DNA from: Chitinispirillales bacterium
GTDB lineage: Bacteria; Fibrobacterota; Chitinivibrionia; Chitinivibrionales; Chitinispirillaceae
Assembly (NCBI GenBank): GCA_031254105.1
Contig: JAIRVB010000033.1
Location: 1 to 64,000 of the forward strand
Direction: 5' to 3'
DNA length: 64,000 nucleotides
The position numbers and the translations under genes were made by a program. The notes under the pieces are model-generated. The model was not told where the DNA came from. It saw only the letters and a list, made by a program, of their open reading frames with translations, and did no database searches. Shown in pieces: positions 49,096 through 51,489 of the stretch (within the stretch, counting starts at the first letter, position 1; each line of letters opens with the position of its first letter).

Positions 49096-49512
49096 TCAAG
49101 AACCTTTTACTCTTTTGATAAAACTTATGTCGGTTTCAAAGCAATCAACCGAATCAAAGAATGAGTTAACGTTCATAACATCAAAGAAATCATCAAGTGT
49201 GTCATTGGGCTGCTTGCTCATAAGCCCTATTTTAATCATATTATAAACGATGTATCCAAAATCATCTGTAACGCTGATTCCCCAGTGCGCAAGGACACTT
49301 CCGGCCATCAGCCCATATTGTTTATGCGCAAACGCCAGAAGCCCCATAGAAAGTTCCTGGCCGGTTACATGGCGCTTTTCACCGATTTTCGTAATGTAGA
49401 AATCCAGACCATTAAGAACAAATTCGTAAGCGCCGGTTTTATAACGGTCATCAAGGCCGCTTTCGATGATCTCTGCTCTTATTTTTTCAGTGATCCGAAC
49501 AGGAATAGACAT
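49096..49512 (-). CDS. Minf_1886-family conserved protein
   Basis: A 138-aa soluble protein. RYKTGAYEFVLNGLDFYITKIGEKRHVTGQELSMGLLAFAHKQYG and LMAGSVLAHWGISVTDDFGYIVYNMIKIGLMSK match the conserved core of the Minf_1886 family, found in Planctomycetes, Verrucomicrobia and related phyla. Its function is unknown. The C-terminal acidic/Phe-rich region (NDTLDDFFDVM) is also family-like. It is separated by 87 bases from the downstream end of the PEGA gene and could share its transcript. Confidence 0.8.
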   Translation of the reverse strand: MSIPVRITEKIRAEIIESGLDDRYKTGAYEFVLNGLDFYITKIGEKRHVTGQELSMGLLAFAHKQYGLMAGSVLAHWGISVTDDFGYIVYNMIKIGLMSKQPNDTLDDFFDVMNVNSFFDSVDCFETDISFIKRVKGS

Positions 49513-49599: not shown

Positions 49600-51243
49600 C
49601 TACCTTAGATTGACAAACCGGGTCGGATTCTTGCCCGGCGTGAATGTCATAGATTCGGTCTTCTCTAAGCCGTCTTTTACAAATCTAACTTGATGAGTAC
49701 CTACAGGTACCTGCAGTTCCGCATCGTTTGATTTTCCGATAAGCCTCCCGCCAATGAAGATATCCGCGTGAGAAGGCAGGGTCGCGATAAAAATGCTCGC
49801 CCCGGCCGCGGCTGGCGGAGGAGGAGGCGGCGCGACCGCTGCAGGTGGTGGAGGCGGCGGCGCTGCCACGGCTGGTGGTGGTGGAGGAGGCGCTGCCGGA
49901 GCCGGAGGCGGCGGGGGCGGCGCGGCAGCGGCAGCCTGCAGAGTAAACGCATGGGTTTGTGAGCCGCCGGTATAATCTATAGTTTTTGACGCTGTAGTAA
50001 ATCCGCTCCTTGAAACTGAGATAATCATGTCACCAAAGAATGGCGTACTCCACGTAAAAGGAGTGACCCCTTTTCTTTCACCGTCGATTTCGACAGTTGC
50101 GCCGCTCGGGATAGATGTTATAACTATTTGATTTCGCTCAGCAGGTTTGGGCGGCGGCTCAGCTGCTTTGGCGGCGGCAGGCGCGGGTGTCGGCGCCGGA
50201 ACAGGCGCAGCTTTTGCGGCTGGCGCCGGCGCAGTTTTGGCGGCGGGCGCCGGTCTTGGCGCAGGGGCCGGAGGAGCTTTGGCAACATGAGCCGGCGGCG
50301 TACTGACAGGTACTGTTCTTGGCGACTCGACCGTTGCTATGGGAATCTCTTCTTCTTTAGGAGCAGGAGGCGCTTCTTCTACAGGTTTTTCTTCGACCGC
50401 AGGTTTAGCCGGAGCCGCAGCAACAGGAGCGGCGGGCGCGTCATCCGGTTTCCCCGTAAACAGGAAGATGCCCGCGATGCCAAGCGCCACAACAACAGCA
50501 GCGGCAACCGCAATAACCGGAAACCCTTTTTTGGGCTTTTTAAATTCATCATCAAAATCTTCTAAGCCGCTGATATCTTTTTCCGCAACAGGAGCTTTAG
50601 GTTTAACCGGAGCTTCGGGATATTGCACGCTCGGCTGACTTGGCGGCGGTATCGGAGCAATGGACGGCGCAGCGTCTGTTCTGGGCGGCGGCGGCGGAAA
50701 CGCGGGAGCCTTGGGCAGTGGCGGCGGAAGCGGCGCAACAGGCGGCGCGGGCAGCTCCTCCTGGAAAATATCAAACTCCTGAGAAGGAGGCGCAACGGGA
50801 AGTTCCGCAGACACTCTTTGCAAACCGCCATCTCCAAATGCCGAACCTATTTCCGTGCGCAGGCTCTCAAATTCCGATTGCGGCGCCTGATGTTTTTTAA
50901 TCTCATCGGACAGCGCCATAAGCTCGCTCTCAGTTTTGAGAACCCCGATAATACTGGGGATCTCCATTCTCTGGAGAAGCCCCGCCACTTTGGGCTGCGG
51001 GGAGAGCATCGTGAACGTCCCGTTCAGCCCAAGAACTCTCTTGTTAAGCTCTCTGAAAGCGTTGTTGTCACCGGAGGAAAAATCATCCAGCGGTGAAATA
51101 TCAATAGCGAAATTGCGCTTACCAGCCGAAATCATCTGCTCGATAAACTCTTTGAGCATGCTGGAATTGAAGACTATATCATCCTCTTCAAAAACCGGCT
51201 GCACAACATCGAAAATTCCGAGTGTCCTAGTACGGAAGTTAAT
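49600..51243 (-). CDS. STAS-PEGA protein with proline/alanine-rich linkers
   Basis: A ~547-aa protein. The N-terminus up to ~130 is a STAS-like domain (FRTRTLGIFDVVQPVFEEDD, ISAGKRNFAIDISPLDDFSS). A Pro-rich stretch, one hydrophobic helix (GFPVIAVAAAVVVALGIAGIF), long Pro/Ala linkers and two PEGA domains follow (IVITSIPSGATVEIDGERKGVTPFTW; ASIFIATLPSHADIFIGGRLIG). So a cytoplasmic STAS and extracytoplasmic PEGA are joined through the membrane. A GTG at 51204 would truncate the STAS domain. I favour ATT at 51243, since GGAGG lies exactly 5 bases upstream and no ATG/GTG/TTG precedes the domain. Possibly an envelope-linked anti-anti-sigma-type adaptor. Confidence 0.8.
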   Translation of the reverse strand: MNFRTRTLGIFDVVQPVFEEDDIVFNSSMLKEFIEQMISAGKRNFAIDISPLDDFSSGDNNAFRELNKRVLGLNGTFTMLSPQPKVAGLLQRMEIPSIIGVLKTESELMALSDEIKKHQAPQSEFESLRTEIGSAFGDGGLQRVSAELPVAPPSQEFDIFQEELPAPPVAPLPPPLPKAPAFPPPPPRTDAAPSIAPIPPPSQPSVQYPEAPVKPKAPVAEKDISGLEDFDDEFKKPKKGFPVIAVAAAVVVALGIAGIFLFTGKPDDAPAAPVAAAPAKPAVEEKPVEEAPPAPKEEEIPIATVESPRTVPVSTPPAHVAKAPPAPAPRPAPAAKTAPAPAAKAAPVPAPTPAPAAAKAAEPPPKPAERNQIVITSIPSGATVEIDGERKGVTPFTWSTPFFGDMIISVSRSGFTTASKTIDYTGGSQTHAFTLQAAAAAPPPPPPAPAAPPPPPPAVAAPPPPPPAAVAPPPPPPAAAGASIFIATLPSHADIFIGGRLIGKSNDAELQVPVGTHQVRFVKDGLEKTESMTFTPGKNPTRFVNLR

Positions 51244-51415
51244 AGTAACCTCCTTGAATAATATTTCTGTTTAGTTTAGTTATATGTGTTAGTTTATATC
51301 TCTTTTTTTACCGCTTATTACCATAAAAAACACGTACTGCCATATGTCCGGCGTATCAACGGTCACCATCAAAAATGCCATTGCGCCAAGCTTTTCTATG
51401 AACATCGCCAAAAAA

Positions 51416-51489
51416 TACGCCAGACAGGATTCGAACCTGTGGCCTTCGGCTCCGGAGGCCGACGCTCTATCCAGCTGAGCTACTGGCGC
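51416..51489 (-). tRNA. tRNA-Arg (CCG)
   Basis: A 74-nt tRNA. Acceptor GCGCCAG pairs with CTGGCGT (G1-U72 wobble). D-arm TAGCTCAGCTGGATAGAGC, anticodon stem TCGGC/GCCGA with loop CTCCGGA (CCG), T-arm ACAGGTTCGAATCCTGT, discriminator A followed by a T run. CCA is not encoded. Confidence 0.94.

Follow-up and report, generated by a model that had tools for sequence, protein, structure and literature searches.

The window, that is, the whole stretch of 64,000 nucleotides analysed here, carries on its minus strand a gene whose predicted product joins an N-terminal STAS domain to a transmembrane stretch and PEGA sequences (STAS-PEGA), located between a tRNA-Arg(CCG) gene and a gene of the Minf_1886 family (Table 1). 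An open reading frame (ORF) list limited to ATG, GTG and TTG places the start of this gene at GTG 51204. None of these three codons, however, is found between the in-frame stop and this GTG, including the nine codons that separate TAA 51273-51271 from an in-frame ATT, and no Shine-Dalgarno (SD) sequence could be recognized by eye in the 13 nt preceding the GTG. The initial annotation had proposed this ATT as a likely AUU start, since a consensus AAGGAGG was placed exactly 5 bases before it and no ATG, GTG or TTG was available nearby, and both observations were confirmed (AAGGAGG at 51255-51249, ATT at 51243-51241). It had also stated that the STAS domain begins about 13 codons before the only GTG; the distance holds, but this GTG is rather the first canonical codon, as ATGs follow at codon indices 28 and 36. 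The minus-strand sequence across the start reads CAAGGAGGTTACT and then ATT AAC TTC CGT ACT AGG ACA CTC GGA ATT TTC GAT GTT GTG.

Table 1. Features of the STAS-PEGA locus in the window.
Feature	Position	Strand	Remarks
ATT start codon, STAS-PEGA gene	51241..51243	-	ATT/ATC at same codon in 37/40 genomes with a readable orthologous start
Shine-Dalgarno AAGGAGG	51249..51255	-	5 nt upstream of ATT; spacer TTACT = 51248-51244
STAS-TM-PEGA gene	49600..51243	-	547 codons + stop; stop codon 49602-49600; frame open throughout
GTG, first canonical codon downstream of ATT	51202..51204	-	codon index 13; rejected as start
In-frame TAA stop, blocks upstream start	51271..51273	-	
tRNA-Arg(CCG), upstream of STAS-PEGA gene	51416..51489	-	ARAGORN (2216-2289 of locus L002)
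Minf_1886-family gene, conserved downstream neighbour	49096..49512	-	TIGR04138, 112.2 bits vs cut-off 60
Possible 8-bp hairpin GGAGGTTA / TAACTTCC, start codon at tip	51234..51253	-	family f1

The PEGA assignment of the window protein was strong (PF08308, 67.4 bits against a cut-off of 20.8, E=1e-18, in two stretches). The STAS match (PF01740, 18.4 bits, E=0.0019) was under the cut-off of 22.6 in this protein and over it, at 27.4-35.1 bits, in six relatives scanned, which included one each of families f9, f13, f2, f10 and f12. Modelling of residues 1-125 with AlphaFold2 (mean pLDDT 89.9) indicates that a STAS fold is present, and the best PDB matches of the model were STAS, anti-sigma-factor antagonist and stressosome proteins, with TM (query) of 0.64-0.78 in the 16 matches with E<=0.001. 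In this model, strand E2-8 directly follows the start and is followed by strand E11-17, within which the GTG (residue 14) is placed; thus, with a GTG start the first of these strands would be lost and the second interrupted, and ORF lists limited to ATG, GTG and TTG truncate the protein inside its second strand. Ser57 is nearly invariant, and it may correspond to the phosphorylation site of SpoIIAA-like proteins. The STAS part is followed by a hydrophobic stretch (GFPVIAVAAAVVVALGIAGIFLF), taken by eye as transmembrane, and then by Pro/Ala-rich linkers and PEGA, an arrangement that probably puts the STAS part in the cytoplasm and PEGA on the outside.

Of 100 relatives searched, 59, with the window's own genome among them, yielded matches, and a profile search of 167 Fibrobacterota genomes found some STAS match in 156. 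The start was read in the strong, long orthologues listed, which comprised 40 genomes and, together with the paralogue L093, 41 rows; rows with ATT or ATC at the start column are referred to as ATY rows. These counts exclude f8, f11 and other distant STAS proteins of unsettled orthology (L040-L054, L056-L059, L094-L107), as well as repeats, namely L001 (the own gene), L032 (judged from length and sequence to be the contig of L003), L055 (from the genome of L036 and like it in the compared part), L060-L089 and L108/L109 (repeats of L033/L034). ATT or ATC occupied the start codon in 37 of the 40 genomes, distributed over 22 genera and nine families, and ATG in the other three (f9 and f13). With L093 included, there were 19 ATT, 19 ATC and three ATG rows; the AUU proposed for the window therefore has to be widened to AUU or AUC across relatives. 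The ATY rows are phylogenetically correlated, and the six f10 rows are near-identical.

Within the window's order, all 30 readable starts were ATT or ATC, and none was ATG, GTG or TTG, out of 40 genomes in the order; the start could not be read in G002, G008, G012, G014, G017, G020, G021, G030, G036 and G037. Outside the order, ATC was found in f10 (six genomes of one genus) and f12 (one genome), and ATG in f13 (two genomes) and f9 (one genome). No row presented ATA, although this codon makes up 35% (own genome, G000) and 19% (G025) of the isoleucine codons in the ORFs surveyed. On a gene tree built without the short L024 and L035, both of which remain in the counts, the ATT and ATC labels required about five changes, three of them forced by well-supported branches, with many deep forks weak. 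The ATG orthologues fix the position of the start, since their ATG is found at the same aligned codon: in f13 it sits at the ATT column (MRFETRTIGVFEVLS), and in f9 it does so in a gene followed, as in f2 and f5, by M23 endopeptidase-like and Minf_1886-cluster genes. Both L034 (f9) and L092 (f13) encode STAS plus PEGA. The orthologues read also keep the FRTRTLGIF strand and start at the ATT codon; it had been suggested that homologues starting at the GTG or lacking that strand would speak against the AUU start. Altogether, by comparative evidence, the non-AUG start of the STAS-PEGA gene is real, conserved and selected. For f8 and f11, whose STAS proteins are shorter and more distant, inspection by eye of the loci compared showed an ATG or GTG in frame within ~5 codons of the column (L053 unaligned). 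The paralogue L093 (G024:C2, 1638-4013 on the plus strand) combines a STAS domain with a KAP NTPase in one fusion and presents an ATC start after GGAGG, with a second ATC directly adjoining; the unusual start thus seems to have accompanied the STAS domain when it was duplicated.

In the 38 ATY rows, the spacing between SD and start was 5 nt in 33, 6 nt in three and 4 nt in two, and the SD duplex energy had a median of -11.8 kcal/mol (range -13.3 to -7.2). The corresponding medians at best-SD ATG sites were -5.5 (G000) and -6.0 kcal/mol (G025), and the ATY median was reached by only 2.6% of 266 ORFs in G000 and 2.8% of 217 ORFs in G025, taking the best ATG within 60 codons. The three ATG orthologues ranged from -4.8 to -6.4 kcal/mol, which is suggestive of a link between a strong SD and a weak start codon, as far as three such rows of only two lineages can tell. 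Four of 15 genomes (G001, G031, G164, G041) yielded the exact 16S tail pattern, which gave no direct view of the anti-SD of the own genome. The start codon is also set in a particular context, with U at -1 in 35/38 and A at +4 in 35/38 ATY rows and both (U-AUY-A) in 33/38, whereas U-AUG-A was found at 23/149 (G000) and 18/137 (G025) of the SD-supported ATG sites, 41/286 together. The -1 U is able to pair with A37 of the initiator tRNA. Pairing of the +4 A with U33 of the same tRNA has been proposed (PMC9841429).

In f1, the family of the window, the SD and codons 2-4 can also form a hairpin (GGAGGTTA/TAACTTCC) that carries the start at its tip. Folding of positions -13 to +15 gave -8.8 kcal/mol in the window, -7.8 to -10.3 kcal/mol in 13 of the 17 f1 rows, with the remaining four at -5.2 to -5.4, and the single f4 row formed a hairpin of -9.9 in a different register; the median of 21 infC rows folded was -2.4 kcal/mol. 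Codon 3 was TTC in 17/17 f1 rows and codon 2 was AAC in 16/17, while the rest of those ORFs used TTC in 173/396 (44%) and AAC in 108/229 (47%) cases, a bias that suggests synonymous constraint and to which no probability is attached because the rows are related. Seven of the 38 ATY rows, all from f1, beat 90% of their synonymous nulls, the mean rank over the 38 rows was 0.46, and in L004-L006 the real codons folded worse than most random synonymous nulls. The idea that all rows share a start hairpin was considered and rejected, given that the hairpin was strong in f1 and the f4 row and weak elsewhere. In a wider fold (-45 to +45) of the 41 rows, the median unpaired probability was 0.36 for the SD, 0.68 for the start and 0.48 for the whole segment. 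The f1 hairpin may mask the SD and act as an additional brake.

Regarding the gene neighbourhood, the Minf_1886-cluster gene was present in eight of the 12 neighbourhoods examined, and an M23 endopeptidase-like gene, with NCBIfam matches under equivalog cut-offs, was present in three, which hints at envelope work for the STAS-PEGA protein. A tRNA-Arg(CCG) gene was found upstream in all 25 primary f1-f6 loci scanned (L002-L025, L037) and in both f13 loci (L091, L092), and the scans revealed none at paralogue L093 or at the loci of f7, f9, f10 and f12. Since the 3′ end of this tRNA lies only 33-45 nt from the STAS-PEGA start in L004-L006, L008, L016 and L017, and 12-15 nt from it in f13, both genes may be co-transcribed.

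The gene best known for such a start, infC, was compared in the same clade. In 30 infC genes, for which the codon after the SD was chosen by eye and a second copy in G019 was left out, the start was ATT in 13, ATC in eight, ATA in two, TTG in five and ATG in two, and the 21 ATT/ATC rows presented U at -1 in 21/21 and A at +4 in 19/21. Nevertheless, the start codons of infC and STAS-PEGA do not track each other, since in g32 (three genomes) and f12 STAS-PEGA starts with ATC while infC has TTG and ATG, respectively, and in f9 infC has ATT while STAS-PEGA has ATG. The infC genes with an apparent ATA, placed after GGAGG, both belong to family f7 (L135 in G029 and L126 in G038); an apparent infC TTG was observed in g32 and f13, and the other relatives of the order had ATT or ATC.

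The specificity of the trait was approached by a survey of codons after SD motifs in parts of two genomes, the own genome (~462 kb) and G025 (~400 kb). After GGAG, ATG was clearly enriched (45 observed against 8.5 expected in G000, 39 against 5.2 in G025) and GTG was enriched to a lesser extent, while neither ATT (11/9.6 and 4/5.0, observed/expected) nor ATC (4/5.4 and 3/5.2) was enriched in these samples. In G000, ATT was somewhat over-represented after AGGAGG (3 against 0.7 expected) and GGAGG (6 against 2.6); one of the three AGGAGG-ATT cases was the STAS-PEGA gene itself, and the other two directly precede an ATG. The pattern AGGAGGN{4,6}ATYAA occurred at four sites in the 3.68-Mb own genome and its reversed version at 11, which means no enrichment, and two of the four sites corresponded to STAS-PEGA and infC. 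Among 12 stand-alone STAS paralogues, ten from the order and two from f9, picked from match lists rather than exhaustively, all started with ATG, 11 at the same column and one a codon earlier. In these samples, the non-AUG start is thus a trait of the STAS-PEGA gene and infC, with sporadic other candidates. One such candidate is a 223-codon membrane-protein-like ORF in the own genome (L199, G000:C42, 8320-8988 on the plus strand; also L145 from 1512), which combines AAGGAGG with an ATC start and lacks canonical codons ahead of codon index 41. It was rejected as a third conserved ATC start, because eight of 60 genomes matched, the own included, and its closest two homologues (G004, G007) have an ATG ~9 codons upstream of the aligned place; the ATC may be a start that arose recently in this genome. 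Another is a sucC-like ORF (IKLHEYQSRELLAEFG; L156, G032:C14, from 1512 on the plus strand) with an apparent ATT start after AGGAGG and an in-frame TTG eight codons upstream.

The explanation that we favour is that ATT 51243-51241 is the true translation start and that its initiation is weak by design and limited by IF3, a reading which, taken as a whole, we consider likely. Comparison of the relatives establishes where the start lies and that it is conserved, as well as the strength of the SD, a context like that of infC and the ordinary ATG starts found elsewhere. The ATT would be decoded by the ordinary fMet initiator tRNA despite the third-base mismatch, and a near-perfect SD at near-fixed spacing, together with the U before and the A after the codon, would rescue enough 30S binding, while IF3 would keep rejecting the AUY-fMet-tRNA complex. 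Consequently, this envelope protein would be made at a low level, and more of it would be produced whenever the ribosomes have less active IF3 at their disposal, as happens with infC; the hairpin may add a further brake in f1. Such IF3-limited low expression is the most likely mode of working, because the start codon class, the SD strength and the conservation match those of sigR, ccpN and cvfC1, and STAS-PEGA output is probably tied to a translation factor. According to PMC4611024, IF3 discriminates in general against triplets that lack a 3′ G; the same source indicates that too extended an SD is also discriminated against, which counts against this explanation. It is possible, though less than probable, that STAS-PEGA would be a second IF3-gated gene, held at AUU or AUC in nine Fibrobacterota families and acting as an inverse reporter of IF3 per ribosome, to which one family would have added the hairpin as a further lock. 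If so, envelope or peptidoglycan work would be coupled to the state of the translation machinery.

Different readings of the start itself were weighed. Translation could begin at GTG 51204, the first canonical codon and the one chosen in the ORF list, or at a later ATG, leaving the conserved upstream stretch untranslated; however, amino-acid conservation extends from codon 1, only 6/38 ATY rows show a GTG at that index (13) and no canonical codon exists in the next 29 codons in 5/38, and the window GTG lacks an SD and would cut strand E11-17. As the ATG orthologues begin at the ATT position and not at the GTG, this reading is extremely improbable, and the likely AUU start proposed initially was upheld. 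Alternatively, the ATY could be an internal isoleucine of a longer product, reached from an upstream in-frame start, by frameshift or by coupling to an upstream frame. An in-frame canonical codon does occur upstream in 4/38 ATY rows (L012, L022, L030, L039), and in some rows (e.g., L003, L004, L010) an out-of-frame uORF has a TAA overlapping ATTAA. Nevertheless, 34/38 ATY rows have no ATG, GTG or TTG between the in-frame stop and the ATY, this stop lies within 16 codons in 30/38, and 11/38, the window included, have no upstream out-of-frame ORF reaching the start. Moreover, ATCAA and altered second codons occur without an overlapping TAA, and in six loci (see above) the tRNA 3′ end lies only 33-45 nt from the start. 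This alternative is highly improbable.

Other readings accept the start and dispute its meaning. AUU and AUC could be general start codons in a clade with relaxed start selection, as the isolated ORFs of G000:C42 and G032 and the mild excess of ATT after AGGAGG and GGAGG in G000 would allow; we regard this as improbable, though slightly less so than an internal isoleucine, given that GGAG enriches ATG and not ATT or ATC in both samples, that the 12 paralogues use ATG and that the two closest C42 homologues do so upstream. A dedicated initiator tRNA with a GAU anticodon could instead read AUU and AUC as strong starts. An initiator-like arm GGGCTGATAACCC was indeed found at six places in G028, G164, G082 and G041 (L248, L249, L250, L252, L254, L255), and GGGTTGATAACCC once in G016; a CTTAT version of the arm was seen at four places. 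However, ARAGORN recognized no tRNA at any of the six GGGCTGATAACCC places, the CTCAT version of the arm corresponded to tRNA-Met(cat) at four of six places examined, and the own genome contained only the CTCAT version among the arm sequences searched. Judged on the GGGCTGATAACCC and CTCAT places examined, the probability of such a tRNA appears to be minimal. A far more serious alternative is that the weak start sets a constant low dose, as is reportedly suggested for pcnB, without responsive regulation by IF3, and the persistence of ATC in STAS-PEGA where infC has TTG or ATG is in keeping with it. On the other hand, general discrimination by IF3 against triplets whose 3′ base is not G, as described in PMC4611024, would lead one to expect some IF3 dependence, and a constant dose is considered possible while falling short of probable.

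A non-AUG start kept through nine families, with several switches between ATT and ATC and not a single ATG among the 30 starts read in the order, is evolutionary evidence that the weakness itself has been selected. The ATT, ATC and ATG orthologues of one gene also constitute a natural series for measuring the purpose of a weak start. The initial remark that AUU starts are usually regulatory fits this comparative pattern. Searches of open-licence papers listed none on this STAS-PEGA gene, and none that mentions a PEGA domain together with a STAS domain.

To our knowledge, non-AUG starts outside infC are few. In E. coli, pcnB reportedly has an AUU start that limits its product, as attributed to Binns and Masters in 2002; it thus resembles STAS-PEGA in its start and encodes a different protein. 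With infC, STAS-PEGA shares the AUU/AUC start, the strong SD, the -1 U and the +4 A, and the AUYAA context is mostly common to both genes in the clade. However, the protein is unrelated and not autoregulatory for IF3, and the SD-start hairpin of 13/17 f1 STAS rows (-7.8 to -10.3 kcal/mol) contrasts with the infC median of -2.4. In Streptomyces, repression by IF3 has been demonstrated for sigR, which has a GTC start with AGGAGGTG (PMC5472188); the start was GTC in 32/34 and GTT in 2/34 Streptomyces genomes, and that source reports no evidence for it in the other actinobacterial genera it discusses. Like STAS-PEGA, sigR is a gene distinct from infC that has kept a non-canonical start along with an extended SD, but sigR is experimentally proven and its GTC/GTT start is described for Streptomyces, whereas the AUU/AUC start of STAS-PEGA extends over nine families and is known from sequence comparison. 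According to PMC13009471, Staphylococcus cvfC1 (AUU) and ccpN (AUA) also have extended SD sequences, and their reporters reached ~10% of AUG expression in poor medium. They share with STAS-PEGA a conserved non-AUG start with an extended SD, although these are other genes in another phylum, where S. aureus and B. subtilis have the ccpN start in common (PMC13009471). Comparative evidence therefore places STAS-PEGA among the selected non-AUG starts, as for infC, sigR and ccpN, where it is notable for the depth of its conservation.
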